From Pegea sp. RAD2-039 (lineage: Eukaryota > Chordata > Thaliacea > Salpida > Salpidae): DNA of 64,000 nt. The notes beneath the pieces were generated by a model, which ran no database searches, was not told the DNA's origin, and was given only the letters and a program-made list of their open reading frames with translations. The translations under genes and the position numbers were made by a program. The DNA lies in the NCBI GenBank assembly GCA_034620365.1, contig JAQGEQ010000349.1, forward strand, positions 94,503 through 158,502, read 5' to 3'. Shown here piece after piece: positions 1 to 60,560 of this stretch; position 1 is the stretch's first letter, and each line of letters starts with the position of its first letter.

Positions 1-260
1 CCAGCTTTTTGGGCCCAGAAACCCAATATAAGGTCCAAAGTCCTTTTGTATCCCCTTTTATTTGCCCAACAAGCAAGTTTTGAAGGGCCCCTGTTTGATT
101 TTCAGATAAGGGAGCACAAAGTCCCTGTTTGGTTTAAGATTTAGATGATTTTAAGATCTTTCTTCAAGGATTTCAAATCTGAGATTTTTAACTGAAGATA
201 AAAACTAAAGATGATCGTGTCTTTCTGCATCTTTTAACTTGAAATCAATCTTGCTTCTAG

Positions 261-2999
261 CTCTTCTGAAACTAAACTCCAAATCGATGCAAGAGATCAT
301 CCAACAAACTCCAATCTCAGATAGGATCAAATCCAAGAAGAAGCTCCTCCAAGATCTTCAGGAGCACAAAGATCAACTTCACAAATTCAAACTTAATTAT
401 CCTTACATCACAGGTGAGTCGATGACATCAATGTGACTATGACGTCATCACTAAGTTTACAGATTTATTCAAAGAATCTGATGACGTAGCACAAATGATT
501 GATGACGTAGAGCTTTCGGTCACGGCTGAGTTGTTGCAGTTAGAAGCACTGAAGCGTGACGACGACGCGTATGAAGGGGAAATCGCGCGGCTGACGTCAC
601 GTCTTAACGACGCGAAAACGGCTTTGGAGCAAATTCGTAAAGGTAGATGACGTCATAATTTTGGAAATGATCACATGATCAATTTTATAAAAGATGACGT
701 CATCTCGAGATCTGATGACGAAGAAGATAAACTGGAAGCTGATATTCGAAATTATGAACAACAACTGAGAGATCTGAAGAACTCCGATCGACGTATGATG
801 ACGTAATCATCGCGTGATGCTGTTATTTAAAAGTCTTGTGATTTAGAACGCCTCTCTCTCAGTACTGTATCAAGTTCGAATGACGATGACGTCATCACAG
901 CTATTGATGTTCGAAACAGTGAAAAGCCACGTGACAAAAAGTAGTTTCGGCCAGAAATGAAAAACGCCAAAAAAGTAATTAATGAAATGCAGATTTGTTG
1001 GTGAAAAAGATGAGTTGTTAGAGTTACTTGGAGATGATTTAAAACGACATCTAGTGACAGATTTATCATCTTCCAATCTCCATGGATCACAAGAGAGAAC
1101 AACTTCCAGTAAAATTCATATTTGAATCTCGAAAAAAATTACTCTTCGAAATTTTCAGTGACGTCATCAACCGGAAGTACCGCTTCACTACTTGAAGCTC
1201 AAATCAGTTTCCCGGATGTAGAAGATGAACTTAAATCCATCTCTAATTCGATTAATGACGTCATCAGCACTCCACAACCAGTTGCTACGTCATCACCATA
1301 TCTCCAAAAACCTGCTAATGATTCAATGACGTCATCACTTCCTACAACAAGTTTTGACCAATCGTGGAACGCCCTTAAAAACCAGGTTAGATTCACCTCC
1401 TGATGACGTCATTCACTCAAAACATTGACGTCATAGTTGGGTGAGCGAGCAAGATCTTTGGAGACTGCTCTTCAGAAGCAAGAAGAGTTAAAGATGAAGA
1501 TCACGGAGATCACCGAAAAATTTGACGATTTTCAAAATCAAGTTGATGACGTCACTAGTGACGTCACTGTAACCAGAAAATTAGTGGCTGAAATTAACTC
1601 AATGGCAGACCAGATTAGTGAAGTAGAGCGTGAAACTCAGATGACGTCACAATCGAAAGGTGGTGACGTCATCAACGCGATTTCGTCAATTTTATTCGAG
1701 CGTTGGGAAACCTTAAGAATGAAAAGCGCTTCAAAGTTAACTAATCAAGAAGTGAGTCGATGACGTCATCTACTACGTCATCATCTGATTACGTCATCAA
1801 CAGATGCTTAAAATGGAAGATCAAGCTCATCTTCAAACAGTAGAGGCTTATAAAAAAGAATTAAATGATATTAATGATTGGATGACGTCACGACAACTAG
1901 AGTTGTCGACGATGACGTCACAAACATCAGATGATGACGTCAGTAACTTACAACGTAATTTAAATAAACATGAAAAAGTTTCTGAAGAAATTGAACGGAA
2001 AGTTGAATTGCTTGAAGAACTTGCTGGTTAGTTTTGATGACGTCATAGTGACGTTTTAAAGATATAATTTTGATGACGTAATTTCTTTAATTTTCGAATT
2101 CGATTTAATATAGAGACCTACAAAAAGATTAATCTTCATCATCAAGAATTTAATAAATCTTTTGGCGTTGCTATAGGTAACAGTGACGTCATCTCGTAGA
2201 TATGGGGTTTTGGTGTTTCGTTTTTAGATTTTCAATCAAAAATTAAGTTTTGATATCACTGTGTGACGTCATCATTCACTCATCTAGAATCTTTTTTGCG
2301 TCGTTGGTGACGTCATCAGTTAAAATCATTTTTCATTTTGTTTGAACTTTGTAAAAATTTATGTAAATAAATTTCAAAAATCAGCTGGAAACACTTTTTT
2401 ACAGAAAATATCTCGAAAAACGATCAACAACCAGAATTAACAGCGGAAATTGATGACGTCAAAAATCGATTGTTTATTTTACAACAAAAAATAAACGAAT
2501 CACAAAAAGTTTTTCAGGTAATTCCCCCGAAATGAAAAAATTAAAAAATTTTCAAATCCGAAATTTCAGAATCAGTTAAAGACTCAAAATCAAGACTCGT
2601 TGAAAAACTACGAATCAGAATCAGAACGACTTCAACGTTGGCTACAATCAATCCAGGTATGACGTCACTACTGTGATGACGTCATTGATTTTAACAAAAA
2701 TAATTTTCAAAGCCACAAATGAAATTGAAAGAAATATCAAATCAATTTTCGGAAGATTTCCAAAATCATCAAGATCAGCTGGATGCTCTTTCCAGACACG
2801 GGAGCAAGATTGATACTGGTTAGTGACATCATTCGGGATGACGTCATCATGGTGACGTCATCAATTTCTAGCGAGTCTTGCGTCGACTCTTGAGGATGGA
2901 GATGTTTTAATGACGTGGAAACAGCTGCGTCATCATTTAGAGGAGTTGCAGATGGAATCAATGACGTCATCAACTAACACGTCATCAGTGGTGATGATG
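261..2999 (+). CDS. SYNE1/2-like: Nesprin exons 1-13: spectrin-like rod, first visible part
   Basis: Exons: 261-413, 463-642, 694-792, 847-940, 993-1108, 1159-1385, 1437-1751, 1804-2026, 2114-2176, 2405-2517, 2570-2656, 2713-2818, 2872 to about 2999. The translation is charged, heptad-like alpha-helical sequence with spaced tryptophans typical of spectrin repeats (for example ERLQRWLQSIQ, LFERWETLRMK, DINDWMTSRQLE). Exon 4 begins after the acceptor TGATTTAG, the only choice that keeps phase with exons 3 and 5. The donor of exon 13 is ambiguous: 2987, 2990 or 2999, all phase 0. Between exons 9 and 10 lies a 228-nt intron with three TGACGTCA copies. The first 260 bases hold no exon I could identify. 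DDVI and MTSS peptides recur because TGACGTCA sits inside codons. Confidence 0.85.
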
Positions 3000-5900
3000 G
3001 TTGGTTGTCATGGTAACCGACAAAAAGAAAAAAGCTTAAACGTAATTCTATGAAAGAAACAAATAATTGAATTTTAATCCAAATTATTTGATCTTTAGAA
3101 GAAACTGGAAGATTTGATAAAGATCTGGAGAAGAGGATCTAAAGATGAAGATGTTGAGAAGAGATCTTTGAAGCTGATGAAAGTAAATCTTCCCAAAAAA
3201 TCCTTTTTTTTCTGTCAATTATCTATTTTTTTGTAGAGAATATCTGATTGGCTACAACATCTTCAATTCAATCATCTAATTGTTGATTGGACAAACCAAA
3301 ATGACGTCATCTCTAAATTAGATGACGTCATAAAAGCTCTAGAAGAACCACTAAGCGAGAAATTCAATGTAAAAATATGATGACGTCATCTTTCAAATAA
3401 TTGTTTTCTTCTTTTTTTTTAGTTTTGTGAACGCTTATCGGATGATAGCGATGACGTCATCGGTTGCGTCATTAGTGTGAAAAATCGCGCGGAATTAGTA
3501 AAGAAAATTATGAATAAAGAAGAAGAAAGATCAGAAGTTAAAAGAAGGGAATGGAAAAACTGTCAGGTTTCAGGGTTTCCAAAATTATTTTTTTAAATTT
3601 ATTTGGAAATAAGTGTTTCTAAATAAAAATTTAAAATTTAATTTTACAAAAATGATTTTTAATTTACTTTCAGATTGAACTTAAATTACTTTTGTCACGT
3701 GTTTCCACTGTACAAAGTGACGTCACAGCGATGACGTCACGTGATCAGAATGATCAATCTGAGCTTGAACGTTGTTGTGATGACGTCACAAACTTACGAA
3801 AGAGTTTTGATAAAAATGAAGAAATTGTTTTAAAGGTTTCCAAATTAATTTTATATTTTGAAACTCTAAAATCGGTATTGACGTCACAGTTTGCTGATGA
3901 CGTCATCCCTCATCATACAATCGACGCAATTCAATTAAAGAAAAATTTGAATATCTTGGAGAAGACGGTTATGAAAGTTTCTCAAGTTTACCGACATCGG
4001 AAAAATGATTCTAATAAATTGATGCAGGTAAAACAGTGTTTCCAATTATAAAATAATTAATAAAACTTTTTAATAAAATTATTATTTTTAATTAGATCAA
4101 GAATAAACAAAATTAAATTAAAAGTATTTAGTTTCGAACAAATACTTTAATTTGAAATTAAATTTTTTTGTTTTGAAACACTGTTTCTAGATGCTTATTG
4201 ATCACGACAACATGATGAAGATCGCTGAAGATAAATTAAATCAACTTCCGATAAAAATTGAAGGTGACGTCATAGATTTATGTGATTACGTCACAAGTTT
4301 CAAGGTTTGAAGTAAAAATTCGAATATTTAGAAAATATTGAAAAAAAAATAATTTTTAGAAATTTTTTCAACTTCTTCATCGGCAACACTTAAATTTCAA
4401 TCAATTTGCAACAAATTTCAACTCGAATTTCACTGAAAAAGCGACAAAGAAAATGAAATATTTGAACGAACGACAAGAACGAGTTGACAGAAAGTGGAAT
4501 GACGTCATCACGCGCTTACAACGCGATTTAAAAGTAAACTTTTTTCACATTTTACTTGTTTCAAATTAAAATTTTTTACAGACACAAAAAGAGATTGACT
4601 CGAAAAGATTACGTCAGAAGACTATCATAAGTGACGTCACAAATTTCATAAAATCGCCAGCAGGAAGTGACGTCACAACCAAAATTAATGAGTTGGAAAC
4701 AAGTCGAGAAAAATTGATTTTTATTGGAGCAGGTTCTGACGATTTATGATGACGTCATCACTAATACTGATTTTTTGCAAATTTTCAGATATTGATAGAA
4801 TGTTGGAAAAATCAAAATCGTGTAGTCACGTGACTAGCTCTCCGCTTTGTAAACAGCTTCGAGAGCTAGTGGACGACCACACGCGAGCTCGTTGCCATGC
4901 CAACTGTCAATTAGACAAATGGGTCAAAGTTAAAAGATTTACAGAAAAGTAAAATCTTTAAAAGTAGAAATTTTATTCTCAAACTTCTGTTTTAAGATTC
5001 CATCGAATCGCTGATGACGTCATCAGTTGGTTACATGATGTAGCATCACCGAATCTTAATCAAATATCAAACAATATGACGTCAAACAAGTAAAACTCAT
5101 GATGACGTCATAAACTTGGCCACTTAACTTGTTTTTTTAGAATTTTAGAATTGTATGAAGAACTTCAATTACATCAGCTCAAAGTTGATGACGTCATCAA
5201 ATTCGTAGAAACACTTAAAATGACGTCATCATCAACTAACAACGCTATAAATCGAAAAATCAATCAGTTAAAAGAATTGAAGTCTTGCGAAAAGCAGATG
5301 ACGTCACGCTATCAGCAAATACTCAAGGTGAGAAGGTTTTTATCTTGCCGGTTGCCATGACAACCGATATTTATTTGCAGGAAAAAATCGGGAAGTCCAA
5401 ACATACAGATTTGCAAATAAGCTCTGAAATCACTGCTTGTGACGTCATCATTAAAAAGCTGATGATACAATTAAGTGACGTCATCGGAGTAGAAGATCTA
5501 GGTCATCAGCTAGTATCAGTGAAAAAAGTCCGATTGAAGATCGAGTCTTTAAGAATCTTTAGTGATTTCGATCAAAAGATTGAAGTAGTGAGCAGCAAAG
5601 TGAGTTTTGTGGTTGCTATGGTGATTGTGGTTGTCATGTGACGTTGCTATGACAACAGGTTGATGATTTAGAGGTGAAAATTGAAGAAGATTTGAAAACA
5701 TGGAAGAAATTTGAAGAGGATGCTGAGATCTTGAAAAGTTGGATACTCAGAGCAAAAAAAGTTTAAAAAAAAACTAAAAAAAAGTTTATTAATTTGTTTC
5801 ATTTACAGATTTTACAAATAGAAGCTTCTCTGTATAACTATGATGACGTCATCACTCATATTTCAGTCATTAAAAAACAAGAGAAAAAAATGAAAGAAAA

Positions 5901-8900
5901 AAATCGAAAATTATTAAAAATGGAAAAATATTTTAAAAGTTTGTTTTCTTGAGAGAAAATTTCAGGAAAATTTCAATAAATTTTCGCGCAGAATTAATTT
6001 TGGACAAAAAAGTCGCTGATAGATGTTTATCTTCAGAACCCGGATGTGGAAGTGATATCCTTGCTGAGTTGAGTCACATGATGATGACTCTGGAAACAGA
6101 TATTTTTGATAAATTTAATAAAATGAAAAATTTATCAAATGATTGGAAAAAGTAAAAATTAAATTTAAAAAAAAATTTGAATTACTTAAAAAATTAATAA
6201 AATTAAAATTTTTTAAATTAAAATTAGTTTAAAAGAAATTGTTATTTAATTCTGCAGTGTTTCTAATTTTTTTTTAGTTAATTTTTTCTAATTTTATTTC
6301 TAAATTAATTAAATATAATAGAAAATATTTACAAGAATGTGTTAGCGAGAGGTGCTTTCTTCAGGCACCCTTCTTCACGTTTATTGTAAAAATAATAATT
6401 ATTATTATTTAAATTTTTTAGATACTTTTCAGTTTATCAAAAAACTGAAAACAAATTGGCTTTTTTCGAAAATGAAACCGAAAAAGTGAAAACAGAAAAT
6501 TCAACTCTAAAAAACAAAATCTCAAAATTAAAATGTAATGACGTCACTAAACTTCGATGACGTCAAACTAACCTCTTGTTGTCATAGTGATGATAGAAGA
6601 TCTCAGAAAAGCTGAGATTGAAAAGAAATTTCTGTTTATAGAAGGTGAAACGCTAATTTCCACCACAACATCAAAAGTTGAAGATTATGTAAGACGCGAA
6701 TATGAAAATGTCGAGAAGAGGTGACGTCATCAAGTTTTAATTGAAGTCTTGTAAGACTTTGATCATTAATAGATGGAACAGCGCAAATGAGTCGATGACG
6801 TCACTCATAAGCTCTTATGACGTCATTCTAAATCAGTTTAACGAATACGAAATAGTCGAGAAGCAAATTGCGTCAATTATCTTTCAAGTGACGTCACGAT
6901 ATAATTTGATGACGTCATCAGATGATCAAATGAGTGATGACAAAATTCTTCATGAATTAGAAGTGATTTTTTCAATTTATTAAAAAAGAAATTAATTTAT
7001 TTTTTTTAGTTTCTTCAAAATGATTGTGATGAGTTAAAAATTCAATTAAAAAAATTGGAAACACTTTCTGTCGTTGAATTTGACGCTCTTGAGGGTTTCC
7101 AAATGGTTTCTAAAAATTACAAGTTCGAATTAATTCGTAAAACTCAAATTCTAAAATTTAATTTTGACAGATTGTCACGTGACATTCGAACTTTAATCCA
7201 ACATGTACAACATTACCTGATGACGTCACAAGATTTGATGACGTCAAATGCTGAATTCAATAAAAATTATAATTTATTAGAAAATTGGTTAAATAAAGTT
7301 GAAAGTTTCAATAAAACTGAATTATCGACCAATAATCGTTTAGCAATTGAAGTAAGTCATCGATATTTATGACGTCATCATCATGACGTCATCTTATGAT
7401 TAACAGAAAGCTTTGATGGATCAACAAATTCTGCTGACTGAATTTGGTGAAAATTCGAAAATGATGAATCAGCAGAATTTATTAATTTATCAAATTTTGA
7501 TGAATCAGCAAAAATTGAAAAAAGTTCAAAAGTTAAATAAAAAATGGAAAAAAGAATTTTTAGAAACGAATCAAAGGTAGAAATATTTTTATTCAATTTA
7601 TAAATACAAAATCAAAATATTTATTTTACAATTTATTATTTTCTAAGTAAATTTTGATAAATTTTCAAAAGTTTTTTGGAAACACTTTTCTCAAATTTAC
7701 ATTTTCTTTTCTAATTTTTTTAACTAATTTTTATACAAAATATAATTATTTATAAAATAAGATTTTATATTTACAAATATTTCCCAATTTTTTTTTAAAT
7801 AAAACTTTTTTTAGTTTAAAAACTATAAAATTTAAAAGATTGAAAAAATTATTTTAATTTTTAGAATGTTTTTGTTACAATCAATGTTGACTGGATTATT
7901 TTCATTTACTGAAAAATGTACAAATTGGAAAATTTTTGTTGAAAAAGTTGAAAATAATCTCACAAAAAGAACAAATAATATTTTCGAAAATGCAAGGTTC
8001 AAAATTTTATAAATTTAAAAAAAAAATTTGAAACTCTAAAAAATTTTTACTAATTAGCATAATAATCACGTGTTTATGACGTCACAGAATTCTCGATCTT
8101 ATTCTTGTTGAGATTGGATCACGTCATCAACTACTCGACTCGATAATTCGAGATAGTGAACTTCTAATTAACGACGATGACGTCATTGCTACAAGGTGAG
8201 CTTATGACGTCATCGAATCATTTTTTTAACATCTTGACTTTCAGTCACCAAAAACTTGACCATCAATGGCGACGTGTTCTAAATGACGTCATCTCACGAC
8301 GTAATGACGTCATGAAAAAAGTTGATTTATGGAAAAGCTTTATGACGTCATCACAACGTCTAAACTACTCAACCAGAACCATTCAAATCCATTTAAACAT
8401 TTTTGATGACAGTTTTCACGCTTCAATGATTACTGATGACGTCACAGCTTTACTGGTAACACTTTGAAGATAAATTTTGAAATTTTTAACTTTTTTTTTT
8501 AGAATTTAGAAAAAAGTGGATTTTGTGATGACAATCAATGTCAAAAGATGTTAGAAAAAGGTCATGACGTGTTGATGACGTTGTTCGAGAATGATCATGA
8601 CAAGTTAAAGCAGCAAATATCAAAAGATCAAATAGTTTGGAGAAATGTAAACTTATCGATTCGATTATTGAGGTTGTTAGTGACGTCATCATCAAATATT
8701 TTCAATTTCTGATAATATTTATTTATTTATAAAAAATATTAAATTGGATTTTCTATGACATTTTATTTTCAAATATTTCAGTTTTCTTAAATTAATTTTT
8801 ACTTTTTTTATATTTCTGTAAATTTGAATAATGAGAACAGCTGTTACATCATATATATGACGTCACGCTAATATCAGAGGTTAATTATTTGCATTCAAAT

Positions 8901-11900
8901 CACATATGGTGCCCTAGTTAGCTATCCGGGTTTTCCCCTGTTTAGTAAATCATCTCTGTGACGTCACGAATTTATTTTTTTTAGTTTTTTGAATAATTTT
9001 TTCGAATTTCAAACCACGTGACAACTACGTCATCAATGACGTCATTCTGTTTCATCAGACGCAAACTTCAAGATCTTAGCAATGACGTCATAGAATTTGA
9101 CGAAACTATTAATGACGTCATCGTATTAGTCATGGAAACACGCGCGATGTTTATCACAGAATCGATGACGTCATCACCATCACAGTTACAAAGTGACGTC
9201 ATCAAGCTGCGCGATCGTCAAATCATGTTTGAGTTAAATTGGGATCGTATCGAGTAAGTGTGACGTCATCAAACCAACATGACGTCATTAAAATTGATGA
9301 TGACGTCATAGGAAGATGAAAAGATCATTTGAAATCTTCATGAAGAAGATCGAACGTCCGGAAAATCTGATGATGGAAAATCGACTCAAAGTCGCGATTC
9401 TTCTCTGGAAGACGATGAAAATGATGACGTCACAACGTCAATACGTCATCAACACAATTTTAGGAGAAAGTGAAAAATTCAATGAAAATTATCGTCGCCT
9501 TTCTGATTGGTTGAATCGAAAAGAAGCAGAAATCGCGTTGATTAATGAACACAACTGTGACGTCATCATGAGTAAAATGCGTGACGTAAGCATCTTTTGA
9601 TGATTGATTCGTTGTGATAATTATTTGATGACGTCATAGGATTTCGCGATTGGAAATGATCATCGCGCGATCTTGAGAGATCTTGGTGAAGATTTGAGAT
9701 CTTCAGGAGCCGATGAGGTTGAGATGAAGATGAGAAGGATTGATGAGCGATGGAGTTATTTAGAAGAGTTGCTTCGCGCGAGGTTGATGACGTCATTAGT
9801 GCGAATTAGGAAATAAATTTCAGTTTTTTTGTTTTAGGTCGAAAAAAGTGAAAGGAACTTTGAAAGCTGTCAATCAACTGAACTTGTGTATGATGGAGCT
9901 TCGTCATTGGCTGAAAGCAATTGAAGATAATTTGAATGAGCCAATCAGATTTGAGAAATGCTCAGATGAAGATATCAAGTTGAAATTGAAAGAACAACAA
10001 GTAAGCGACTAATTTGGCTTTTTGTAGTTTTTTATTTTCGGAAATTATGGTCAGAAAACGGTTCAAAATGGTTTTAAGTGGGTTTTGGTGGTTGAATTAG
10101 GAAAAGTACTTAAACCAGCACTTAAATTAGAAATTTTGAAGCATTTAGACGATAAAAATAAAATTTTGAAATAATATAAAATTAAGAAAAGTTCTAATCG
10201 AGCGCCAAAAACCAACTTTTTGATTTGGTGAGAAAAATTTAAAGTATTTCAAATTATATAATGAGAGAAAGAGGAAGAAAAAGTTGAAATCACTCATGCG
10301 GAACGATGCATTTATCAGCTGTTATTTCTTGAATGTCATTAGAAAGTATAAATTTGAGATAGAAGTTTGTTTTGGTTTACAATTTTCTTAGTTCAGAAAA
10401 TATTCTTGATAAATTTTGTGGCTTTAAAAGTTACTTTCAAATAGAATTGATTTTCTTGATTCGAAAAAAAAGGAGTATTTATTGATTATTATAAGAATCA
10501 GGAATCAGTTTTGACTTTAAGTAAAAAACTTGACCAATAATTTAAGAAAATTAAATTTTCAAACTTTACTAATAAATAAGAATATTTCTATTTTTATAAA
10601 AATATTAAAAAAAATAAAAAAAAAATAAAAAATAATAAATTAATTTTTAAATTTCTATTTCTTCAACAAAATCAGTATTAATTAAAGTCACGTGGTTTTA
10701 AAAAAAAAGGAAGTTAAACTCTCGGCTTCTAGTCACGTGGTTCACTGTTTGCAGTTACTTATGACGTCATAATTACTTCGATTCGTAAAATTGTAAATCA
10801 GTCAAAGTTGTTGATGACGTCATCGCCGTTCACGGTGAAGTTTTAAATTTGATCACGTGTTAAAAATGATTTTAGAATAAAAGAATTTAACATTTTTAAA
10901 TTTAAATTATTTTTTGTTTAGATTGAAAAAAGTTTATTCTTTTTTTACTAAAAGTAATTTATTTTTTTCTTATTTTGATAAAAATAGAAGTTTTATGAAA
11001 GTTTTTTTTTCATCAAAATATATTTTGTAATTTCTTACTTAACTATATTTAGAAAATAAAAAAGAAACTTTTTTAAAACAAACTTTTCCTTGTTTGAAAA
11101 AATTCTTTTATTTCAAGATATTAAATTATATCTGATGACGTCATGATTATATTATTTAAGATAAAATTTAAAATTGACTTTTTATTTGATAAATATTTTC
11201 TTGAAGTTTAAATCTGAAATTTTTTGTTTTTTTGAAAGTTGGTTTTTTACTGAAAATGTTTCAAAATTAAATTTTAATTTTTTTGTTTAATTTTATTGTA
11301 TTTACTTGTGTATTTAGTATTTCTATAAATTTATAATAAATATTTGTTATATAATATATATAAATATTATTTATATTCAAATTATCATAAAAATATAATT
11401 AAATTATAATTTAATAAACTGAAAATTTTTTAAATTTATAAATCAGCAAAAATGAAAAAGTTTTTTGGTTGCTTAGTAACTCTCCTCAAAGATGCTAACC
11501 GGATCAACAATTAAAGACGAATCAAGCATCTACATCAACACTCTTCAAGATCTTCTAAATGAGGAAGACTCTACTGATCTTATAGATCAGATCATTTGTA
11601 ATTTTTGTTGTAATTCCGAATTACGTCATCATTACCATGACAACCAAGGTCCACAAAAATGGTTCAACAAACGGTCCAGATCTTACAGTATGCCTAGTAA
11701 AGTGACAGTGATGACGTCACCGTATGTGACGTCATCAGTACGACGTCAACATTCGGTTCATGACATGTACTACAGTTTGTCGTTAGTGGATATTCCTGAG
11801 AAACTGTTAGTTGATGATGACGTCATTGATGACGTCACAGACGATTCGTCACTTGATGGCGCTCTCGAGTACTTTCGCGTACTGACACCTAGTGGTGGAA

Positions 11901-14900
11901 GTGAAGAAGGTTTTATGACGTCAACACCAAAGCGAAATAGTGCTAAGATGATGACGTCATCAGTAGTTAGTGAAGATTGTGATTTTACGTCACATGGATA
12001 CTGTACTTGTTCTTTCTGTCAAGGGGAATCCCCGATCAGGGAATCTTCAGTTGAGGCATCAGAACAGAGTTCAGGGTTTTGTTTATGTAATGAGGTTGGA
12101 AAAAAGGGCTTCCAATTCAAATTTCTAAATTTTTAATTTTTTTGTAGATTATTCAAGAAGAGATCAGTTGTCATAGCAACGGCGTTTCGTCTGTCATCAA
12201 TCTTTGTGAAGTTCTTCTTCATGATACAGATGCGTGTCCGGAAGAGAGAGATCGTGATGAGATCCGGGGAGCTTCCAGTAGCCTCTCGAGGAGGTGGAAG
12301 TCGATTTGTGTCTCGTCGGAAGAAAAAACAAAAAAGTAAAAAAATTTTCTAAATAAGGAATATATTCGGGGTTCTTCTTCTTCCAAAGACTTTTACGGAA
12401 GATTATTTTATTCCGAAAATTCACTGAAAAGTGATTTGTAACACTTGACTCGATCACGTGATGATCTACGAGAAGTCCTGATTATTTGAGATTCTTCTCA
12501 AAGACTTTTTCAAGATTCTTCATCAATTTATAGAAGACTCTTTTAGTTTTCAATTTATTTTTGAATTGAGAAAAATCTTCATGTAACTGCTTGCTTGTGA
12601 TGACGTCACTGATGACGTCACTGATGTTTCAAGCACGTTTGATCTAAATGAAGATTTTAATAAAAGATTATTGAGATGTAAATTAAACTTTTGATAAGAA
12701 ATCCACCAGAAGCAGGATGCTTTTAAAATCAATAAAATTCCAACTTTTGTGAAATCAACAAATTCTTAAAATTATTCATTCTGAAGTTTTTGGGGATTTT
12801 TTTAATTAATCTATTTTATCTACTAAATAAAAAATTCTATAATTAGTTACAACTTTTTCATCTTTAGCTTTTTTCTGTTTCCGTTTTTGTCTTTGATTAA
12901 CTTTTTTAGTTAAATTCTATTTTTGTTGAAATCTAAAAATTTTTTTGAAAATTTTATCGTTTATTTGAAAAAGAAATTATTTAAAAAATTTCTTTAATAT
13001 TTAGAAACTTTTAAAAAGTTTTGTTAAAAATTTTTATTATAATCAGATGTCAGTTTGATTATCATATCACTTTCTAGTATTACTCAGTAAATGACTAATA
13101 TTAGCTTACTAGTTGCAACTTAAGTAATAAATTATCATTATATGATTAAACATGTTTAAGATGAAACATAACATGACACCAAAATCATATTTGATATTTA
13201 CAAGTTAAAAAATTAAAAATTGATCTTTGCTGCCATCTAACGGATGAAAAATAAATTTTCTAAAGTTGATGAAATTATTTGAGACATATTTTATTTCAAT
13301 TTTTTATATTCTTTTTAAGAAATTGAAATTTTATTTTATTATCTATTTGATAAGATTTCTTTAATCTTTAAATTTATTAAACTCCCAAAATCTATATAAA
13401 TATGATTAAAAACTAAATATTCAAAATATCTTTAGAATTGAAGATACTAAGTCACAGTGGGAGATATTCTTTAAAGATCACTTGATCTTTTCAAACTGGT
13501 TACAAGAAGCAGAGAAGAAGACAGAAGACTCCAACATTCAATTGATAAGCTACAAGAATGCTAAAGATCAGTTGAAGTCATATGAGGTAGGCCAAAATCT
13601 CAAAAAGACAAAAAAGTCGAATTTTATTTAATTAAATTTTTGAAACTAATTTTTTTGGATTTTGAATTTCTTGTAGTTTGCAAATTTATCATTTTTGTTT
13701 CTATCATTTGATGTCTTTAAGATTAAATTAAATAATTCAAAAGTATAATTAATACAAATCTTATTAATTTATTAGATAATTATTATTATTAAAAATCGCA
13801 AAACGAGATACACTTTTCTAAATATTTTAAATTAATTTCAATTTTCTAAATTTAAAAGTATCTTTGTTTCAGAACCTTACATCTTTTTTAATTTTTATAA
13901 TCCTAATTTTGATCTTCATCACTTGCAGACACTCCAACATCAAATCCACAACGAATTGAACCAATTAGAGGCAGTCAACAAACAATACAGAAAATTAACT
14001 CGAGAAAACCGAACTGATTCATCAGAAGAACTCAAAAATAAAGTAAGTTATCGGTTGTCATGGCAACCGACTTATATGACGTCATCATCGTAGGTACATG
14101 ATGCTAACACGAGATGGGACTTGCTGATGAAGAAAGTATTTAACATCATACGCCGCTTGAAACACGTCATCCAGCGCAGAGAAGACTTTGAGTCTCATCG
14201 CGAGGAGTTGATGGTCTGGTTGACTGAAAAAGATCTTCTTCTAACTCATATGGAGCATCTTAGTCCTCAGAAGATCACAATTTCGAGAAAATTTAATGAT
14301 TTATTGGTAAATATTCATTTAATAGTCTCTAAAACAACTCTGACATGTTAGATTGTTTTGAAAATTTGTGTTTTTTGGTGTTTAAAAGTCTTAAAGTTAA
14401 TTTATAGTTTTATTTGAACGGATAAAATGGTCGTTTTTGAGATTGGGTTATGATCGTAAAAAAAAGAAAAAGTCGTTCCGCTTGAATGATTTTCACTACC
14501 CGAAATAATAATGAAAGAAAATTTGGAATTGTAAATTTGTTCGTTTCGAGTTTTAGTTGAAATGCTTTTTGAGTGTTTAGTTGAAGAACTTCAAATTATC
14601 ACTTGTTATTTAGATGTAAGTCTTTTAAAAGGTTGATTTTTTTGTTTATTTTTGTGAATTGTTGCAAATTTTGTTGATATATTTAAATATTTACTTAAAA
14701 AATTGACATTTTTTTATCTGCTTTTCATGAAAATTTATTTTAATTTTTTTTTTGAATTAAAAAATTAAAAATTAAATAAAAAATTTCAATTTTCAAAATT
14801 CAATCTGAGAAACAAACGCCCAAAAAATAAACAAATTTTCCCGAGCTTAATAAAAACAAATAAAAATATCCACAGAATTTTAAAGAGAAGATCAATGAAA

Positions 14901-17529
14901 AGTTAGATGACTTCAGGATCTTGGGATCGGATGCAAGATCCCTTCAACAATCTTCAGATACTTCAGATATTGATGAAATTGAAGCTGAAATGAAAGAAAT
15001 TTATGATTATTGTTGTGACGTCACAAAACGCTTATCGCGTTACAATGAAAAGCTTCAACGTCTTTCTGTAAGTTGATGACGTCATCATCGATGTTTGGTA
15101 ATCTTTTGATCTTTTTAGGATCATTCTTCTCGTCTCAATCTTCATCTTGAAGATTTTGAACTTCCAAATTTTGATTGGTGGAAAAATTGTCGGAAGATGA
15201 CGTCATCACTACCACAAGTGGACCGCAGGACGACTTCTAGTGGAGTGTCCTTAGAATGGGACCCTTATCCCAACAAACATGAAGTAACACTTTTTAACAT
15301 CGACAACGTCACAAACAATGACGTCATCGCTTCTCGATTACACGGTTTGTTTAAATAAATCAAGAGTCGAAATTTGATGACGTCATCATTTTAGGTGACT
15401 TTTCTGAAGGAAGAACCTCTCAGCTAAAAATGGTGAAAAAAAAATTAATTTTTTGAAAATGATTTTTACGATTTTATGCAAATTAGTTCGATGACGAAAT
15501 AGCATCGAAACGAAGCTCTCCAATCAGCATCTCTCAACTCCACTCTGGTGAACTAGGAATGACGTCATCAGCTTCGACTACGTCATCAGTCAATCAGCAG
15601 CTACAACATGACGTCACTGCAGTGATGAGTTGGTTACGTGGCGCAAGTCAAAAGATACAAAGAAATGATGACGTCATCAATAATCGCAACGTCACTGTGA
15701 ATGATTTAGAAGAAATTGTTCGCGATTTGAAGGTGACGTCATCATCACCATGGAGATAGGTTTCATTTTTGGGGATTTTTTTTAATAGGATCTTCAACGC
15801 GAGATCGAATCGAGAAGATGTCTTCATACATCAATCAATCTGATGATGAAGTCTTCAACTGATCAGAAGATCAATACTTTAAACAATAAGTGGACTGATG
15901 TTCGGGAAATGATGACGTCACAGCGTGAAAATTGTCGCCGAAGTTTATTGGAATCAATTGTTAGTTTTTAGAGGATTTTTTAAAAAGGGAAATTTTTGAT
16001 GATTTTTTTGATTTTTAGGATTTTCACAACAAAATGGCTGAAATCGAAAAGTTTTTAGAATCTCAAAAGATAAAAAGATTCCTTGATCCTCCTCATCTTC
16101 AATCAACTGATCTTAAGATGATGACAAAACCAAAAGTGCAAAAAGCCAAAAAATCTTTCAAACAATTCCGATCCGAAACACTTGGCTACCTCCTCCAAGT
16201 AACTTCAACTCACGTGACATCCCAAAAAAAACTCCCAATTGATCCTTAGATCAGCCGGATGCAAGACATCTCGAACGAAATCGTGTTAAACAGCGAAATA
16301 CGTCATCCGAGACCTCCCGACGGAGCTGTAGAGATCTGTAACAAACTCTCTGATACATCTGAAGGACTCCGGATTCTTCTCGAATCTTTAAATCGTCAAC
16401 TTGATGTCTTTCAACGTCATTTACAACACACTACGCGACAGGTAGTGACGTCATCATATCTACACGATGATGACGTCATCATCTTGCAGAGAAAGTCAAG
16501 CTCCGAAGATTCGAGTGTTGATACGTCTCTTCATGCTACGTCATCACCGTTGAAGTTAAAGATGCTACGTCATAAGGTGGGTAGTGACGTAATAAGTGTT
16601 GTGACGTCATCAGAGTTGTTAGAATCGAAGTTAATTTTTGAGTAGTTGAAAATTGAAATTCTCTTTTTTTGTTTTTTTTCTTCTGATCTTTGATGATCAG
16701 ATGGATGATCAGGTAGATGATGATCTTGTTACTATGGAGATCTCACAAAGGTTGGTTGGTTGTCATGGAGTCGTTTGTGTTGTCATGACAACAAGCATGA
16801 TTGGTGGATTAACAAACACACAAATTAACAGACAAATTAACAGACAAATTAACAGACAGAAAATAAAATATTCTTATTTTGTTGGCTTTTTTTTTTGCTG
16901 AAAAATTTTGTTTAAAACTCCAAAAAAAACTAAAAAAAATTTTAGTTAAATTTTAACAAAACTTGACAAAAGAATTTGGGAAAGTTTTTCATAAATGATT
17001 AATTTAAATTGTTTAAATCTTCAAAAAATATTTAGTTTGGAAATTTCATTTTGAAAGTTTGAAAAAAAAAACATTTTAAAATTTTAATTAAAGTTTTTCA
17101 ACATCTTAATTTTCTTTCTAAACTTTTGGTTTTTAAGTTTTGTTGATGACGTTGATGTTAGATGACGTCATCACTGAACGTTGACATTTTGTTGTGACGT
17201 CATCACGCTTTTGTGAAGCATGAGAAAGTTTTGACAGCATGTTTCCAATTTTATTTTTCAAAATTTTAATTATAAAAATTTTTTACAGCTTCGACAAAGA
17301 CGAAACCAAAACTACTAACTACGTCACCGATGACGTCATCACTTCGAAAAAAGCTTTCTGGAAACGCTCCTGTTTGGCTGCATCACTTTTTTATCTATTT
17401 TTTTTCCTTGTCAGTATAGTTTGTTCAATTCAACCACGTGACCCTGTAGCCACGTGTTTGAAGACCAATAATTTGTACTGGTCCGTTTATCCTACTCTCC
17501 AATGGTACCACGGTCCTCCTCCTATTTGA
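261..17529 (+). CDS. SYNE1/2-like: Nesprin (SYNE1/2-like) KASH-domain protein, 5'-partial, 54 exons
   Basis: Nesprins are giant spectrin-repeat proteins of the outer nuclear membrane. Their KASH tail binds SUN proteins in the perinuclear space, and the rod reaches cytoskeletal partners. I chained 54 exons with GT-AG borders and matching phases from 261 to the TGA at 17527-17529, about 8,750 coding nt. Their coordinates are given in the grouped entries below. The N-terminal calponin-homology (actin-binding) part, if present, lies upstream of the window. The C-terminal third shares strings such as NLCEVLLHD, ENRTDS, RRLKH and LEWD with vertebrate nesprins as I remember them, in the same order. 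Most introns are 47-59 nt. Exons and introns are full of TGACGTCA. Family identity is near certain; exact borders of exons 3, 4, 13, 16 and 27 are less sure, and SYNE1 versus SYNE2 cannot be decided. Confidence 0.95.
3099..6151 (+). CDS. SYNE1/2-like: Nesprin exons 14-27: spectrin-like rod
   Basis: Exons: 3099-3182, 3237-3368, 3423-3575, 3674-4027, 4191-4304, 4360-4533, 4582-4732, 4789-4948, 4997-5089, 5141-5327, 5381-5599, 5659-5760, 5809-5938, 5992-6151. All junctions preserve frame. Exon 16 probably uses the donor after 3575, because the nearer GT at 3568 breaks frame. Exon 27 must begin at 5992 (acceptor TTTTCGCGCAG): the closer AG at 5965 would leave a 27-nt intron and a frame clash, whereas 5992 gives a normal 53-nt intron. 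The helical segments end in classic spectrin-type Trp positions, for example VDRKWNDVITRLQRDLK in exon 19. Exon 21 is unusually cysteine-rich. No enzymatic domain is visible; the role is as a structural spacer. Confidence 0.85.
6334..6411 (+). mobile_element. Solo 3' tail of the CR1/Jockey-like retrotransposon in a nesprin intron
   Basis: The word GTTAGCGAGAGGTGCT, a short loop, GGCACCC, TTCTTCAC and TTTATTGTA, followed by an A/T-rich (AAT) tail, closely matches the 3' end of retrotransposon R1 at 31224-31300. It lies in intron 6152-6421, which is 270 nt against a typical 47-59 nt, so the insertion explains most of the extra length. It is a strongly 5'-truncated copy in the same orientation as the host gene. 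Confidence 0.8.
6422..10000 (+). CDS. SYNE1/2-like: Nesprin exons 28-40: spectrin-like rod, distal part
   Basis: Exons: 6422-6534, 6588-6720, 6773-6962, 7010-7351, 7407-7576, 7865-7996, 8088-8195, 8245-8455, 8503-8672, 9059-9253, 9312-9585, 9640-9782, 9838-10000. Exon 30 starts at 6773 after ATTAATAG; an earlier AG would shift the frame. Exon 36 runs to 8672, and its split AG/A codon joins exon 37 in frame. Trp-containing helices recur (LLENWLNKVES, RRLSDWLNRKEAE, ERWSYLEELL). Exon 40 (KGTLKAVNQLNLCMMELRHWL, then KLKEQQ) aligns with the vertebrate nesprin segment just before NLCEVLLHD. Longer introns are 7577-7864 (AT-rich, nothing recognisable) and 8673-9058 (two TGACGTCA copies, otherwise unassigned). 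Confidence 0.87.
10001..11491 (+). promoter_or_regulatory. Intron 40 segment, candidate internal promoter
   Basis: These 1.49 kb of AT-rich DNA contain no supported exon. The second half holds three TGACGTCA sites (near 10760, 10812, 11136), three CACGTG sites (near 10687, 10733, 10852) and an X-box-like GTTGCTTAGTAAC at 11468-11480, only 11 nt before the ATG of the presumed alternative first exon. The promoter role is inferred from position and motifs. Similar motifs occur across the whole gene, so their presence alone is weak evidence. Confidence 0.4.
11468..11480. promoter_or_regulatory. X-box-like (RFX) site
   Basis: GTTGCTTAGTAAC matches the RFX X-box layout GTNRCC-spacer-RGYAAC except for one base in the left half-site, and it has inverted half-sites GTTGC and GTAAC. 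It lies directly upstream of the ATG at 11492. Binding is not shown. Confidence 0.4.
11492..12094 (+). CDS. SYNE1/2-like: Probable alternative first exon of a short nesprin isoform
   Basis: This open frame of 201 codons starts with ATG. The codons immediately upstream read TAG TAA CTC TCC TCA AAG, so the frame is closed 5' of the ATG. It ends at a donor (GAG|GTTGGA) at phase 0, followed by a 53-nt intron, and exon 12148 also begins at phase 0. The main chain (exon 40 to exon 41) skips it, and vertebrate nesprins as I remember them are contiguous across that junction. The peptide is acidic and Ser/Asp-rich, with three Cys clusters (CNFCC, CTCSFC, CLC), and has no domain I recognise. Spliced to exons 41-54 it gives about 963 aa, close to vertebrate nesprin-1alpha, which also comes from an internal promoter. 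A cassette exon using acceptor CTCAAAG|ATG is the alternative. Confidence 0.7.
12148..14306 (+). CDS. SYNE1/2-like: Nesprin exons 41-44: conserved C-terminal spectrin repeats
   Basis: Exons: 12148-12335, 13436-13586, 13929-14042, 14094-14306. This is the best-conserved part. Exon 41 contains SNGVSSVINLCEVLLHD and SRRWKSIC; vertebrates have GVASVLNLCEVLLHD and DRRWRNIC. Exon 43 contains VNKQYRKLTRENRTDS (vertebrate INKQYRRLARENRTDS). Exon 44 contains NIIRRLKHVIQRREDFE and LMVWLTEKDL (vertebrate SILRRLKHFIGQREEFE and LVWLTEMDL). These are the membrane-proximal spectrin repeats shared with nesprin-1alpha/2alpha. Intron 12336-13435 (1.1 kb) is AT-rich, has two TGACGTCA copies at 12599-12622 and no gene I can support. 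Intron 13587-13928 is AT-rich with nothing recognisable. Intron 14043-14093 carries the X-box-like GGTTGTCATGGCAACC. Confidence 0.95.
14876..15732 (+). CDS. SYNE1/2-like: Nesprin exons 45-48: adaptive domain with LEWD kinesin motif
   Basis: Exons: 14876-15067, 15119-15344, 15395-15432 (38-nt microexon), 15487-15732. Exon 45 ends a spectrin repeat (EIYDYCCDVTKRLSRYNEKL; vertebrate ELRRYCQEVFGRVERYHKKL). Exon 46 encodes a low-complexity linker with SGVSLEWDPYP; the LEWD codons are at 15251-15262. In mammals LEWD in the nesprin adaptive domain binds kinesin light chains and recruits kinesin-1 to the nuclear envelope, which matters for nuclear positioning. Exon 48 resumes helical sequence (AVMSWLRGASQKIQ). 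Intron 14307-14875 (569 nt) is AT-rich and unassigned. A second possible donor, GAA|GTAACA, lies inside exon 46. Confidence 0.9.
15789..16750 (+). CDS. SYNE1/2-like: Nesprin exons 49-53: last spectrin repeats and linker
   Basis: Exons: 15789-15959, 16019-16198, 16250-16441, 16490-16576, 16701-16750. Exon 49 contains NTLNNKWTDVREMM, a spectrin helix ending. Exon 51 (EGLRILLESLNRQLDVFQRHL) matches the vertebrate stretch before the Ser-rich linker (NRLKLLLKEVSRHIKELEKLL). Exons 52-53 are Ser-rich then acidic linker ahead of the membrane anchor. Intron 16442-16489 is only 48 nt, a multiple of three, and has no in-frame stop, so retention would add 16 residues in frame. The last intron, 16751-17288, includes a 12-bp tandem repeat, an X-box-like site at 16779-16792 and two TGACGTCA copies. 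Confidence 0.88.
16811..16861 (+). repeat. 12-bp tandem repeat in the last nesprin intron
   Basis: About three and a half copies of ACAAATTAACAG, with a slightly altered copy at each end. Probably replication slippage. Confidence 0.75.
17289..17529 (+). CDS. SYNE1/2-like: Nesprin terminal exon: transmembrane segment and KASH domain
   Basis: The split codon AG/C joins exon 53 in frame. The exon encodes a Lys/Asp-rich juxtamembrane stretch, a hydrophobic helix (CLAASLFYLFFFLVSIVC) and a luminal tail of about 30 residues. The tail TCLKTNN..YPTLQWYHGPPPI lines up residue for residue with the vertebrate tail SCALSNN..HPMLRYTNGPPPL. The cysteine that forms a disulfide with SUN is kept, as is the terminal PPP-X that enters the SUN pocket. 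The chain ends right after PPPI, as KASH function requires a free C-terminus. This exon fixes the gene's identity and strand. The CDS stops at TGA 17527-17529. Confidence 0.97.
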
Positions 17530-18648
17530 CCTCACGTGTTTATGACGTCATAATCAGTATTTAGTTGTCTAGCAACGGCCTTTTATTAAAACTGTGTTTT
17601 TTTGTGAAATTTTTGTAGTTTAGATAAAACTTCGCTTTTAATACAAAGTAGTCGATACGAAGTGCTGATAAAAAAGTTTTTTTAATTTAATTTAATGAAA
17701 AAATGATTTCGAAAAAAAATTTGGAAACACTAATTACAACTTTTAAATTAATCAAATTCTAGCAAATGCCTAAAAAATTTTCAAAACTTTTTAACACTTA
17801 AAGTTAGTTTTGTAGTTTTAAAAAAGTTTCTAAGTTTTGTTTTTTTGAATTAAATTTCTTACAAATGATTATTATTTCATTTAGATAATTTGTAAAAAAT
17901 ACATTTAAAGTTTCATTAATTCTAATTTTAAAATTATTTTTCTTTTATTCACTACATGACTGCAGCAGACAAGTTATAGCAGAAAGATTCAGAAGATGTA
18001 GAGGACATGTGACACAAACATTGTGGATCAAAATTTAATAAATTAAGTAAAGGAACTGACATGTATATATGACTTGTTACTTGCATCTATGTTTATTTTA
18101 TGAAAATATTTATTAGTTCACTAGATGTTATTAAAGCTAAGAAGTGAGTTAATTTGAAGAAGATCTCTAAAGGTTTATCCAGGATTTTTATAGAATTCGT
18201 TGAAGTTGAGATAATTTTCAGTGGAGGTAGCAAGTCAGAATTGTTTATATTTTAAATCAAAACTAAAAAAACTTACTGAGATGTATAGATAACTTCTATT
18301 TACTTCACAACAAGCTTGTAGTTGATTTCTAAATATTAAACCTTTAAAAAATACTTTAAAATACCAACTGGTTGCTTTTACTATTAATCAATTAACTAAT
18401 TACAATAATCAATTGATATTGTAGCTGATTTAGACTAAGAAGGTTTTGAGTTTGATATTTTATTTTAATTAGCACTTGGTTTTGTTGTTGGTTTTTTGTA
18501 GTTCTGTTGTTTTTTACATCAGTAACTATTCCGTTGTATAAATCCTTTAGAGAGATATGAAGGATGTGATGTAAGACACAGAATCTACAAAGTTTTATTG
18601 GTTTCTTTGCTTTCTTCTTTATCCTTCAGTTGTTTGTAGAACAGAAAG

Positions 18649-28325: not shown

Positions 28326-28413
28326 AATAAACAAACTTATTAAAAGAAAAATGTTTACAAAATTTCATTTAATTGAACTTTTAAATTTAAGACTTTAGTT
28401 GATAAATTATTTA

Positions 28414-31137
28414 CTGGATGACAGTGATCTTTTTCGTGCTTTGCGCTGTGATAGACTGTCTGATAGAGGCGGCGGTGTTTGTGTAATCTATAAAACATTA
28501 CTGGCACCCATGATTTCAAGAATTAAGATAAATACCATTGATTGCCCAGGATTTGAGATTATTGCTTTCAATTTTCATTACTCAAAGTCTAAGTTTTCCC
28601 GCTTTATATGTACCTACCTACCACCGTCTAAAGTTAACGATGAGGCTACTATTAAGGCCTTTTTGAAGGTTCTGAAAAGCCTTGTTTGTCCTGAGATGTA
28701 TATTCTCGGGGATTTTAATTTTAGTAGAATTGATTGGAATAACCCAAATTTAGCATTCAATGGAAAAATGTTTAATTTGAATGGAGACAAAACTAATTTA
28801 GCCAATCTGAGTCATGTCTTTGTAAACTTCCTTGATGCCAATAATCTATCTCAGATGGTTACTTTTCCAACCCAAGTTAGTGGTAATACTTTGGATCTTC
28901 TCATCACATCAAAACCTGATAACGTTATCTACGTTGATCAAAATGAACCTTTTGCTCTGACATGCGATCACAACATGATTGAATTCAAGCTCCAACAAAC
29001 TTTTTCTACGAACGTTAAAACTCCAAGCATACGGAACTTTTATCGTGGAAATTATAACAGTATAAACAAGTTTTTATCAGGTGTTGACTGGATTTCTGTT
29101 TTCAACTCTACCGAAGACATCAATGATATCTACTCAAGGTTTACTAACATTGTTAATGAGTCAATTAAGTTCATACCTTTATATAGAGTCAACAAAAAAC
29201 CACACTTGCCAAGATATTTAAGGAATTTACAGCATTTGAAAAACCTCTTATACAAACAAACTAAAGCAGATCCTTCCATCAAACCTCTATACAAAGATCT
29301 TTGTCTAGTCTACAAGAAATCAGTTTATAGCCTCTATTTAGGAAAAGAAAGTGCAATCTTATCTTCACCTAGCAAGAAAACGTTTTTTGGCTTCATTAAT
29401 CACAAGCTTAAGGCGAGATCTCATCTACCTCCCTTGCTTGATAACGCCAATCAGCTGGTGATGGAACCAAAGAATAAAGCTGAATTGCTAAACAAACAAT
29501 TTGAAAAGGTTTTTATAACTGATGATGGCAATACTCCTACTATTTCCTTCTCCAATATCCTTTCAAATATCTCTGAGATGGTAGATCTAGACATAACAGT
29601 TGATATAGTATCTAAGGCTATTTCTTCTCTAAAATCAACAGTTTCCAACACCCCAGATCAAATCCCAGCTTTGTTTTTAAGAAAAAGTACTTCTTCTTTA
29701 GCGCTACCCTTATCGCTACTCTTTAACATGACTCTTAAGCGGGGGAGACTTCCACAAATTTGGAAGAATGCTATTATTACTCCAATTTATAAGAAGGGTC
29801 CTAGAAACACTGCACTTAACTACAGACCAGTTTCGCTTACTTCGGTTATCTGCAGAACTCAAGAACACATCATTCACAACTATATAACTAGCCATTTGAC
29901 GGAGCATCATCTAATATCTGATGCCCAGCATGGCTTTGTTAAGCAAAGATCTTCTTTGACTCAACATCTCACGTTTTTCAATGAGCTTACAGCTCATTAC
30001 GGAAGTAATACTCCATGTGACATCATATACCTTGATTTTGCTAAAGCGTTTGATTCTGTTCCACACAACAAGCTCATTACTGTATTGAAAAACATAAAAA
30101 TCAGCAACTCTATCTTAAAATGGATTGAAGATTTCTTATCAGGTAGAACCCAACGAACCCGTGTAGAAAGATCTTTATCTACTCCTAGTAAAGTCACCAG
30201 CGGCGTTCCTCAAGGTTCCGTCCTGGGTCCACTTCTCTTTTTGATTTTCATTGAAGACCTCATCAGAAGACTAATAACAGTAGACAATGTCAGTGTGTTT
30301 GTGTATGCAGATGACATCAAGCTATTATCTGGTTCTCACTCAAAACTCCAAACTGCACTTAATATTGTAGAAAACTGGTCTGCGAATTGGCAACTTAAAA
30401 TCCAGCCAACAAAGTCTGAAGTTATAACATTCTCCCGTAAGCCAGCGGCCAACTTCAGCAACCAATACTACATCAATGGATCCATTCTTGAACGAGTATC
30501 CTCAGTCATAGACCTCGGCATTACTCTGACATCTGACTTCAAATGGCACAGTTATGTTTCCAGAATCTTTGGAAAATCTATCAAGCTTGTCCACCTCATC
30601 ATAAAGACTTTTAATTCTAAAGATCCATGGTTTTTCGTCAACCTTTTCAAACTGTAGATACGCCCTATTCATGAATACAATATCAGTGCATGGATGCCAT
30701 ATCAAGTTGGTGATATCAGAAAAATCGAATCTGTTCAGGCAACATTTACGAGATTGGTTTGCAGGAAACTTAATATCAAATACGAGAGTTATAAGCATCG
30801 TCTCAGCTTCTTCAATCTAGATACTTTGGAAATCCGAAGAATTAAATACGACCTTATTCTGATTTTTAAAATTATTCACAACCTAATTGATCTTCAGTTT
30901 GATGACTTTTTCTCCATTAGTCCCTCCCTCAAGTTATATCAACTTAGAAGACATAAATTACATCTTAATAAGCCCACTCCACCAGCTACGTTAACCAGAT
31001 TAAGTTTTTTCTCATACCGCACAATCAGTACATGGAACAATCTGCCATCAGAGATTGTCATGTCAAAATCACTTATGCTGTTCAAGAAAAAGCTGAATTG
31101 TTATCATATCGCCAACATTGCCATTTCTAAACTGTGA
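28414..31137 (+). pseudogene. R1 ORF2 (endonuclease-reverse transcriptase), truncated, one nonsense codon
   Basis: A partial apurinic endonuclease domain contains the GDFNFSRIDW motif (residues about 104-113 of the open frame from 28399), TLDLLITS and CDHNMIEF. The reverse transcriptase has NYRPVSLTS, LDFAKAFDSVPH, SGVPQGSVLGPLLF and catalytic YADD at 30304-30315. The C-terminal STWNNLPSEIV block is typical of CR1/Jockey elements. The N-terminal endonuclease part is missing. A TAG at 30655-30657 interrupts the frame, which then continues in the same register to the stop at 31135-31137. It is inactive as it stands. Confidence 0.92.
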
Positions 31138-60287: not shown

Positions 60288-60560
60288 CTATTTGAATAAG
60301 TGCTTATAAGTTGTGATAAAGTTATTTCTAGGAAGTGAATTGTTTATTATACATATATTATATTTTGTGATTGGTGACAGTAAAAATCTTTTATAAATCT
60401 TTGGTGGATACACATTTTTGAATAACTGCTAATAAGCTGTGATTAACTTTTGTGGTGTATTTATTTATATTTTTACTTATTATTATATATTATTAACTTG
60501 GTATATTTGGTATACTTTATTAACTTGGTATACTTTGGTGGGAGTTACTAAAAATCTATC
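60288..60560 (+). promoter_or_regulatory. R2 5' UTR with internal direct repeats
   Basis: A 24-nt motif GAATAAGTGCTTATAAGTTG.. at 60294-60317 recurs with four changes at 60420-60443, an offset of 126 bp. A second pair, TTATTAACTTGGTATA, sits at about 60490 and 60517 just before the ORF1 ATG. Non-LTR elements carry their promoter internally, so this segment is the likely promoter. Confidence 0.6.

Follow-up and report, generated by a model that had tools for sequence, protein, structure and literature searches.

Which force fills an animal gene, exons and introns alike, with one and the same 8-bp palindrome? The question is raised by a 64-kb stretch of the tunicate Pegea sp. RAD2-039 (contig JAQGEQ010000349.1, positions 94,503 to 158,502; here called the window, or C24:94503-158502, C24 being our label for the contig), whose beginning carries the 3' part of a nesprin gene filled with TGACGTCA. 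Direct counting yields exactly 113 exact, dispersed copies of this strandless palindrome at 440..17550, the first starting at 440 and the last occupying 17543-17550. This amounts to about one copy per 150 bp, or ~6,600 per Mb, and the remaining ~46 kb of the window (17551-64000) hold 0 copies. First-order Markov simulation of 439-17550 (300 runs) gave a mean of 0.31 and a maximum of 2. A sequence-only reading of the window had arrived at about 113 copies in 17.1 kb versus 0.2 in random sequence; count and excess both stand, while its GC content of about 35% has to be lowered to 30.8% for the palindrome-bearing stretch.

Anatomy of the array in the nesprin gene

That the copies are dispersed, as stated in the earlier reading, is borne out by their surroundings. 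Mean identity between the flanks of the window sites (20 + 20 bases beside each) is 29.5%, and the window contains no tandem array scoring 100 or more. A 5-kb piece (3200-8200) compared with the genome retrieved, among the best candidates scored, itself, a weak internal match and a ~130-bp dispersed repeat that lacks the site; neither a second allele nor a paralogous copy was found among these candidates. Unrelated flanks, the lack of such arrays and the missing second copy thus rule out a repeat family or tandem array. The ~130-bp repeat is located in a nesprin intron (6277-6440) and has at least 40 further copies in the genome, without TGACGTCA.

Many copies had also been described as extended, and indeed 104 of the 113 read R-TGACGTCA-Y. 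TGA precedes 35 copies and TCA succeeds 42 (both in 10), and GATGACGTCATCA occurs 16 times on the plus strand and 13 times as its reverse complement. In 334 sites of the rich loci (for flank and variant counts: window 439-17550, L009, L010, L012, L022 and L023:1-2000; loci are introduced below), the core is followed by T (68%) or C (25%), with C (51%) and A (60%) at the two positions after that. The ATF/CREB consensus is RTGACGTCAY, and the flank preference of the sites agrees with it. Helical phasing was dropped as an idea, as the site positions showed no period of 9.5-11 bp; site distances of 147-165 bp gave values of 3.5-3.8, which are uninterpretable, distances having been cut at 400.

The gene is nesprin, as had been proposed: its C-terminal KASH domain scores 36.9 bits (cut-off 23) in a verified reading frame, and nesprin-2 and nesprin-1 in the PDB are weak best matches (E 0.03-0.16). 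Exon and intron calls come from our own hidden Markov model (HMM), trained on nesprin and used with splice weights for the other loci. By this model the plus-strand gene part at 1..17529 is a spectrin-repeat-like coding path with many ~52-nt introns that runs on upstream along the contig; one model piece matches spectrin below the threshold (20.7 bits, cut-off 29.9). The HMM put the 3' end in a wrong frame, which was corrected by a frame check. The last exon (17290..17529, plus strand), assigned by KASH profile, PDB search and frame check, encodes the KASH domain ending in ...GPPPI and a stop, with the site at 17331 read as DDVI, and the last TGACGTCA of the array follows 14 bases past the stop codon. 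Upstream of the window the array continues with 61 and 63 sites in two adjoining 10-kb stretches. The complete model (C24:74503-112102, 37.6 kb) joins 134 exon segments into an open path of 6846 aa and covers 237 sites. A minisatellite lies inside the nesprin region (L010:4198-5028), and its reverse strand reads RSKEDQKK repeats.

Within the window, 69 of the 113 copies are exonic and 44 intronic by this model, confirming that both compartments are hit, and the array running through the whole gene body is, as the earlier reading held, too dense for a promoter element. What that reading had not seen is where the density appears to peak: by the gene model, the ~52-nt introns are the focus. The median modelled intron measures 54 nt, and the 99 introns shorter than 80 nt (5,127 bp) contain 86 sites, i.e. 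16.8 per kb, where shuffled sequences lead us to expect 0.035. Introns of 80-199 nt hold 12 sites in 1,794 bp, and exons 121 in 20,540 bp (5.9 per kb). Sites are present in 58 of the 99 short introns, with one in 31, two in 26, three in a single intron and none in 41; plus-strand examples with one, two and three sites are the introns at 643..693, 2657..2712 and 9254..9311, respectively. Exonic sites are read as x-D-V in 71 cases and as x-T-S in 50, mostly DDVI and MTSS, the third frame being a stop. The HMM favours exons with an empty stop frame, and intron calls could be promoted wherever a site lies in that frame; however, donor and acceptor signals of site-bearing introns are no weaker than those of site-free ones, which counts against this worry.

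Rich and poor loci across the genome

Genome-wide, TGACGTCA occurs 27,792 times (assembly of 105.7 Mb in 387 contigs; 263 per Mb), as compared to 969, 694 and 2,917 for the same-composition control palindromes ACTGCAGT, AGTCGACT and TCAGCTGA, respectively. The genome as a whole is thus 9.5- to 40-fold over the three controls, and TGACGTCATCA reaches 8,239 + 7,990 copies versus 34 + 45 for its reversed control. At 11 round-number positions there are 17 sites in 110 kb (7, 1, 0, 3, 0, 1, 0, 0, 4, 1 and 0 per 10 kb), still exceeding the 0.68 expected. Loci picked on density are far richer: the neighbours on C24 (L009, L010, L022, L023) carry 33 to 63 sites per 10 kb, and those taken from site listings carry 19 (L011), 31 (L012), 9 (L024), 14 (L027) and 41 (L028). 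Since the round-number positions yield so few sites as compared to 9-63 per 10 kb in rich loci, the excess stems from a limited set of genes or domains, with next to none of it in other places. (The poor set comprises the round-number positions, L013-L021, L025 and L026, all on contigs of sufficient length; of these, L013 and L014 were chosen after the genome site listing.) The proposed genome-wide iteration thus holds for the total count and fails for evenness, and as to whether other genes lack the enrichment, many loci are indeed poor, whereas the genome is not.

Other rich genes look like nesprin in their intron focus, as far as the models tell. Short introns contain 9 sites in 710 bp in L011, 6 in 432 in L012, 7 in 420 in L022 and 9 in 365 in L023, and on the better-scoring strand 12 in 941 in L028 and 4 in 726 in L027; for L024 the two strands give 0 sites in 209 bp and 3 in 391, respectively. 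The corresponding values for poor loci are 0 in 635 (L013), 0 in 56 (L014), 0 in 404 (L015), 1 in 370 (L016), 0 in 116 (L018), 0 in 151 (L019), 0 in 172 (L020) and 0 in 38 (L021), no short introns being modelled in L017, L025 and L026. The exons of L011, which encode a conserved tankyrase-like ankyrin protein, hold 4 sites in 3,621 bp.

Rich genes that could be recognised encode this tankyrase-like protein (515 bits), a UBE3C-like HECT ligase (6k2c, 265.6 bits; next 131), IBTK, a formin with FH2 domain, presumably FHOD, and a MARK/SIK-type kinase. Among the poor ones are a serpin and frames that resemble, by eye, integrin, nephrin, FREM and zinc-finger proteins. A cellulose synthase fused to GH6 is a tunicate hallmark, and the cellulose synthase gene has 0 sites in 4.5 kb, a stretch that includes a GH6 exon (27.5 bits, just above the cut-off of 27) and GT2-type motifs recognised by eye. 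The serpin is in loose agreement with a tunicate: its best named relatives, at 37-40% identity, come from a frog, a sawshark and the ascidian Phallusia mammillata, with other records ranking higher at up to 91%. A search for COX1 gave no match, and the 48 proteins of the IBTK search include no named tunicate. In IBTK, the 918-aa query from this species contains 5 MTS and 6 DDV, while 38 other proteins from the IBTK search (P0121-P0158 of 48; the last ten, weak matches, were left out) contain 2 and 10 in 48,109 aa. Judged from these sequences, the peptides are no general IBTK feature. Downstream of the UBE3C-like gene, L023:2055-2574 is a minisatellite with a 33-bp unit containing TGACGTCA.

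Which process keeps the sites

Our preferred explanation, which we hold tentatively, is that the array consists of ATF/CREB-class bZIP sites distributed along the bodies of certain genes and maintained because natural selection acts on the site in the DNA. An ATF/CREB-class bZIP reader would fit the core, the flanks and the main variant that is tolerated; bZIP genes give 12 exon-level matches in the genome. In the rich loci, 336 intact sites are accompanied by one-mismatch variants, which number 78 where 25.8 are expected. Of these, TTACGTCA has the strongest excess (32 versus 2.3 expected) and retains a bZIP half-site. TGATGTCA follows with 15 versus 4.8, and the other ten classes together reach 31 versus 18.7. 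By our own reasoning, neutral creation and decay should leave one-step variants about as numerous as intact sites. Furthermore, density decreases from short introns to tolerant exons and on to the conserved ankyrin exons of L011, which argues for a pressure at the DNA level that is opposed by the protein, and we read the array as maintained at that level with little regard for coding. Under the selection hypothesis, an ATF/CREB-class bZIP protein would read the sites in genes that are presumably broadly or germline expressed, and its occupancy in germ cells or the early embryo would protect the gene body from being closed by nucleosomes, heterochromatin or methylation. The small advantage of each site would be limited by its cost to the protein.

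The palindrome is not alone. The E-box palindrome RTCACGTGAY occurs 3,577 times genome-wide versus 57, and the X-box palindrome GTTGYCATGRCAAC 264 versus 0; TCACGTGA is found 24 times in rich loci, here additionally including L028, versus 1.4 expected, and 6 times in poor loci versus 0.68. We take E-box and X-box palindromes to be sites of USF/MITF-type and RFX proteins. In the nesprin gene, X-box-type palindromes without strand are located in modelled short introns at 5351..5364 (GTTGCCATGACAAC) and 14054..14067 (GTTGTCATGGCAAC), the latter in an intron also holding a TGACGTCA site. This co-enrichment, like the focus on ~52-nt introns, goes beyond what the sequence-only reading had described.

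The age of the sites can be approached through the long plus-strand exon at 11492..12068, which carries six of them (11712, 11727, 11818, 11830, 11916 and 11952). A search of 5.8 billion proteins with the stretch 11492-12100 gave a single homolog at E <= 0.1, here labelled P0169, with 86% identity. Residues wholly encoded by the six sites are identical in 12/12 cases, as compared to 164/194 elsewhere, and those partly encoded in 7/8, the exception being a change of V to M that keeps the TG of the site. Because the footprints of all six sites are common to this relative, a recent burst is rejected at the protein level.

Several observations weigh against selection as the keeper of the array. 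Long introns of nesprin, though free of coding constraint, are poor in sites (17 in 10,139 bp, 1.7 per kb). There is also the problem of redundancy, as the hundredth site in a gene hardly adds much, yet the sites change the protein. The number of recognised genes that suggest a possible split of rich and poor loci by broad versus restricted expression is small, and L016, by eye a USP/DEAH-helicase-like locus that is likely broadly expressed too, contains only 3 sites in 10 kb, which disfavours a simple broad-expression rule. Genome-wide, TGATGTCA (11,070 versus 2,673) and TTACGTCA (5,160 versus 2,795) exceed their reversed controls, which are not dinucleotide-matched, so that decayed or alternative forms are common outside the rich genes. 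Finally, the footprints predate the split from the P0169 lineage at the protein level, exact DNA sites in the relative being putative, and 12/12 identical residues against a background of ~85% have a chance of ~0.13 and are not significant.

We nevertheless favour selection over a transmission bias, which is doubtful but comes next, and over a mutation or repair bias, which is less likely again. A transmission bias could arise as molecular drive by biased gene conversion, in which repair copies the bound allele in meiosis, so that sites spread in germline-open genes whether useful or not. This would account for the redundancy, for the saturated short introns and for the disregard of coding sequence. 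Recombination can be influenced by ATF/CREB sites: ATGACGT with Atf1-Pcr1 forms the fission yeast M26 hotspot, and sites of other factors can be hotspots too, fitting the co-enriched E-box and X-box palindromes (both from the available part of PMC9775316). However, conversion normally removes a hotspot at which breaks begin, and the opposite direction would be required here. Moreover, the full cAMP response element (CRE) TGACGTCA in ade6 was neither bound nor hot according to the same portion of PMC9775316, long introns are poor in sites, and the best candidates scored in the genome include no second allele of 3200-8200. In its selfish form, which we rate as somewhat more doubtful than conversion as such, bound alleles would win conversion and sites would invade all tolerated positions in germline-open genes until short introns are saturated and proteins rewritten (DDVI, MTSS), E-box and X-box palindromes doing likewise at a lower rate.

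Mutation or repair bias, e.g. methylation-directed mismatch repair, could generate the sites incidentally, an origin that has been proposed for the highly iterated palindrome (HIP) of cyanobacteria; in a published model, the excess of HIP may be a by-product of mismatch repair (PMC4390886, as far as its accessible text goes). We regard this explanation as unlikely, although it has points in its favour: the core contains CpG, the genome encodes C5 DNA-methylase domains (PF00145, 11 matches), and in Ciona, genes with broad expression are marked by methylation of their bodies (available text of PMC3827831). On the other side, X-box palindromes free of CpG are enriched as well, the bias would need to act on some genes only, and 15 copies of TGATGTCA versus 4.8 beside 336 intact sites are unlike methylated, decaying CpGs. 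Rich loci have a masked CpG observed/expected ratio of 0.98, poor loci one of 0.68 (with the L010 minisatellite masked), which also speaks against it, but nesprin introns alone have 0.67, as compared to 1.05 for its exons, so that composition leaves a methylation role unsettled. The methylation mark suggested earlier is thus neither excluded nor supported, C-to-T variants being few in rich loci and numerous genome-wide. The methylase matches themselves lie on C57, C249, C32, C52, C262 and C49, several in long single open frames of 830-873 aa; those on C57 and C249 score almost the same, and C32 has a cluster of them.

Ordinary gene-specific regulation, with clustered CREs as enhancers of cAMP- or stress-regulated genes, is improbable. 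The motif is the CRE and is present in Ciona enhancer regions, but in most regions having it, it lies outside the minimal enhancer (both from the accessible part of PMC11001920), and canonical Ciona CREs have no positional bias around starts in what is available of PMC1796609; here, the modelled 37.6 kb of a single gene have sites throughout, exons included. Slightly less probable still is a role at the RNA level, with sites pairing or serving as splicing signals in very short introns. Such introns are the densest class, those with at least two sites fold with a mean of -15.5 kcal/mol (27 introns) as compared to -5.4 for those without a site (41), and two-site introns number 26 where a Poisson distribution predicts 15.7. 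However, stems of paired sites extend by 1.48, versus 1.77 with shuffled partners (27 pairs), and an RNA hairpin is therefore disfavoured. In addition, 31 of 58 site-bearing short introns have a single site, exons are enriched too, and any complementary pair would serve, leaving one fixed palindrome unaccounted for.

An assembly artefact or repeat family, including the mis-assembly or simple tandem repeat considered in the earlier reading, has a negligible chance, for although the window is at the end of its 158.5-kb contig and adjoins a repeat array, there are 27,792 sites genome-wide, unrelated flanks, no tandem array at the scoring limit, no second copy of 3200-8200 among the candidates scored, and footprints in the independent record P0169.

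Outside nesprin, a tRNA-gene array takes up the window, together with a long interspersed nuclear element (LINE). ARAGORN with the bacterial code gives 36 tRNA predictions at 20779-59941, with recurring units of tRNA-Pro(tgg) and tRNA-Ala(agc) on the plus strand and a minus-strand gene with a four-base 'gtag' anticodon, perhaps an intron-bearing tRNA-Tyr. The LINE (28399-31137) has endonuclease and reverse transcriptase domains and a stop between its two open frames. A 334-aa frame at 60552-61556 with a cysteine-rich start and no Pfam match resembles the first open reading frame of a non-LTR element.

Comparison with known systems

If selection keeps the array, it would represent a distributed gene-body element on a scale that we have not found described for any animal, and would offer a handle on how a compact genome keeps its genes open. 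If a transmission bias keeps it, proteins would bear the visible marks of a drive that is specific for one sequence. In both cases, tunicates, which offer crosses, transgenesis and large natural samples, make it possible to test why some palindromes become highly iterated, a question dating back to HIP1. A further caution is that enriched CREs in tunicate enhancers may be no more than background.

In core and in flank preference (R before, Y after), the sites are identical to those of ATF/CREB proteins. CREs are known as promoter and enhancer elements, with a vertebrate bias to -1 to -150 (available part of PMC1796609), whereas here exons and introns are filled. An animal precedent is the Spalt-like notochord enhancer region of Ciona, in which TRTGACGTCA, the same motif, has 10 copies in 1.8 kb (PMC11001920), so that the earlier phrase 'not an animal feature' was too strong. 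In the accessible text of that paper, the enrichment is reported locally and not as a genome-wide or gene-body property, and it may be the same phenomenon seen locally. A genome-wide account of the palindrome in an animal was not found in the literature searched, in which subscription journals and preprints are largely uncovered.

The periodic An/Tn clusters (PATCs) of C. elegans are likewise dispersed sequence features, non-coding and linked to germline expression (available text of PMC7725773). They are, however, periodic A/T runs, whereas the palindrome lacks a helical period and is also exonic, and its germline link is our proposal. With M26 the sites have ATGACGT in common, and a bZIP reader, Atf1-Pcr1 there (PMC9775316, in its accessible part), is predicted here; the full TGACGTCA in ade6 is not hot in the same source.

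The nearest kind remains cyanobacterial HIP1, in agreement with the analogy drawn by the sequence-only reading. Both are 8-bp palindromes with a CpG-type core, dispersed at a very high count, and in both cases an octamer palindrome is far over expectation genome-wide, here very unevenly. HIP1 is associated with orphan methyltransferases for its inner sequence. According to the available text of PMC4390886, some HIP1 genomes carry further iterated palindromes, as the tunicate has E-box and X-box palindromes enriched. The differences are clear as well. HIP1 is GCGATCGC, whereas the iterated word here is TGACGTCA; HIP1 reaches ~500-2500 per Mb over the genome (same part of PMC4390886), as compared to 263 per Mb; and the present palindrome occupies an animal nuclear genome and only some of its genes. 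By analogy, the array thus appears to work like bacterial HIP1, yet is not HIP1.

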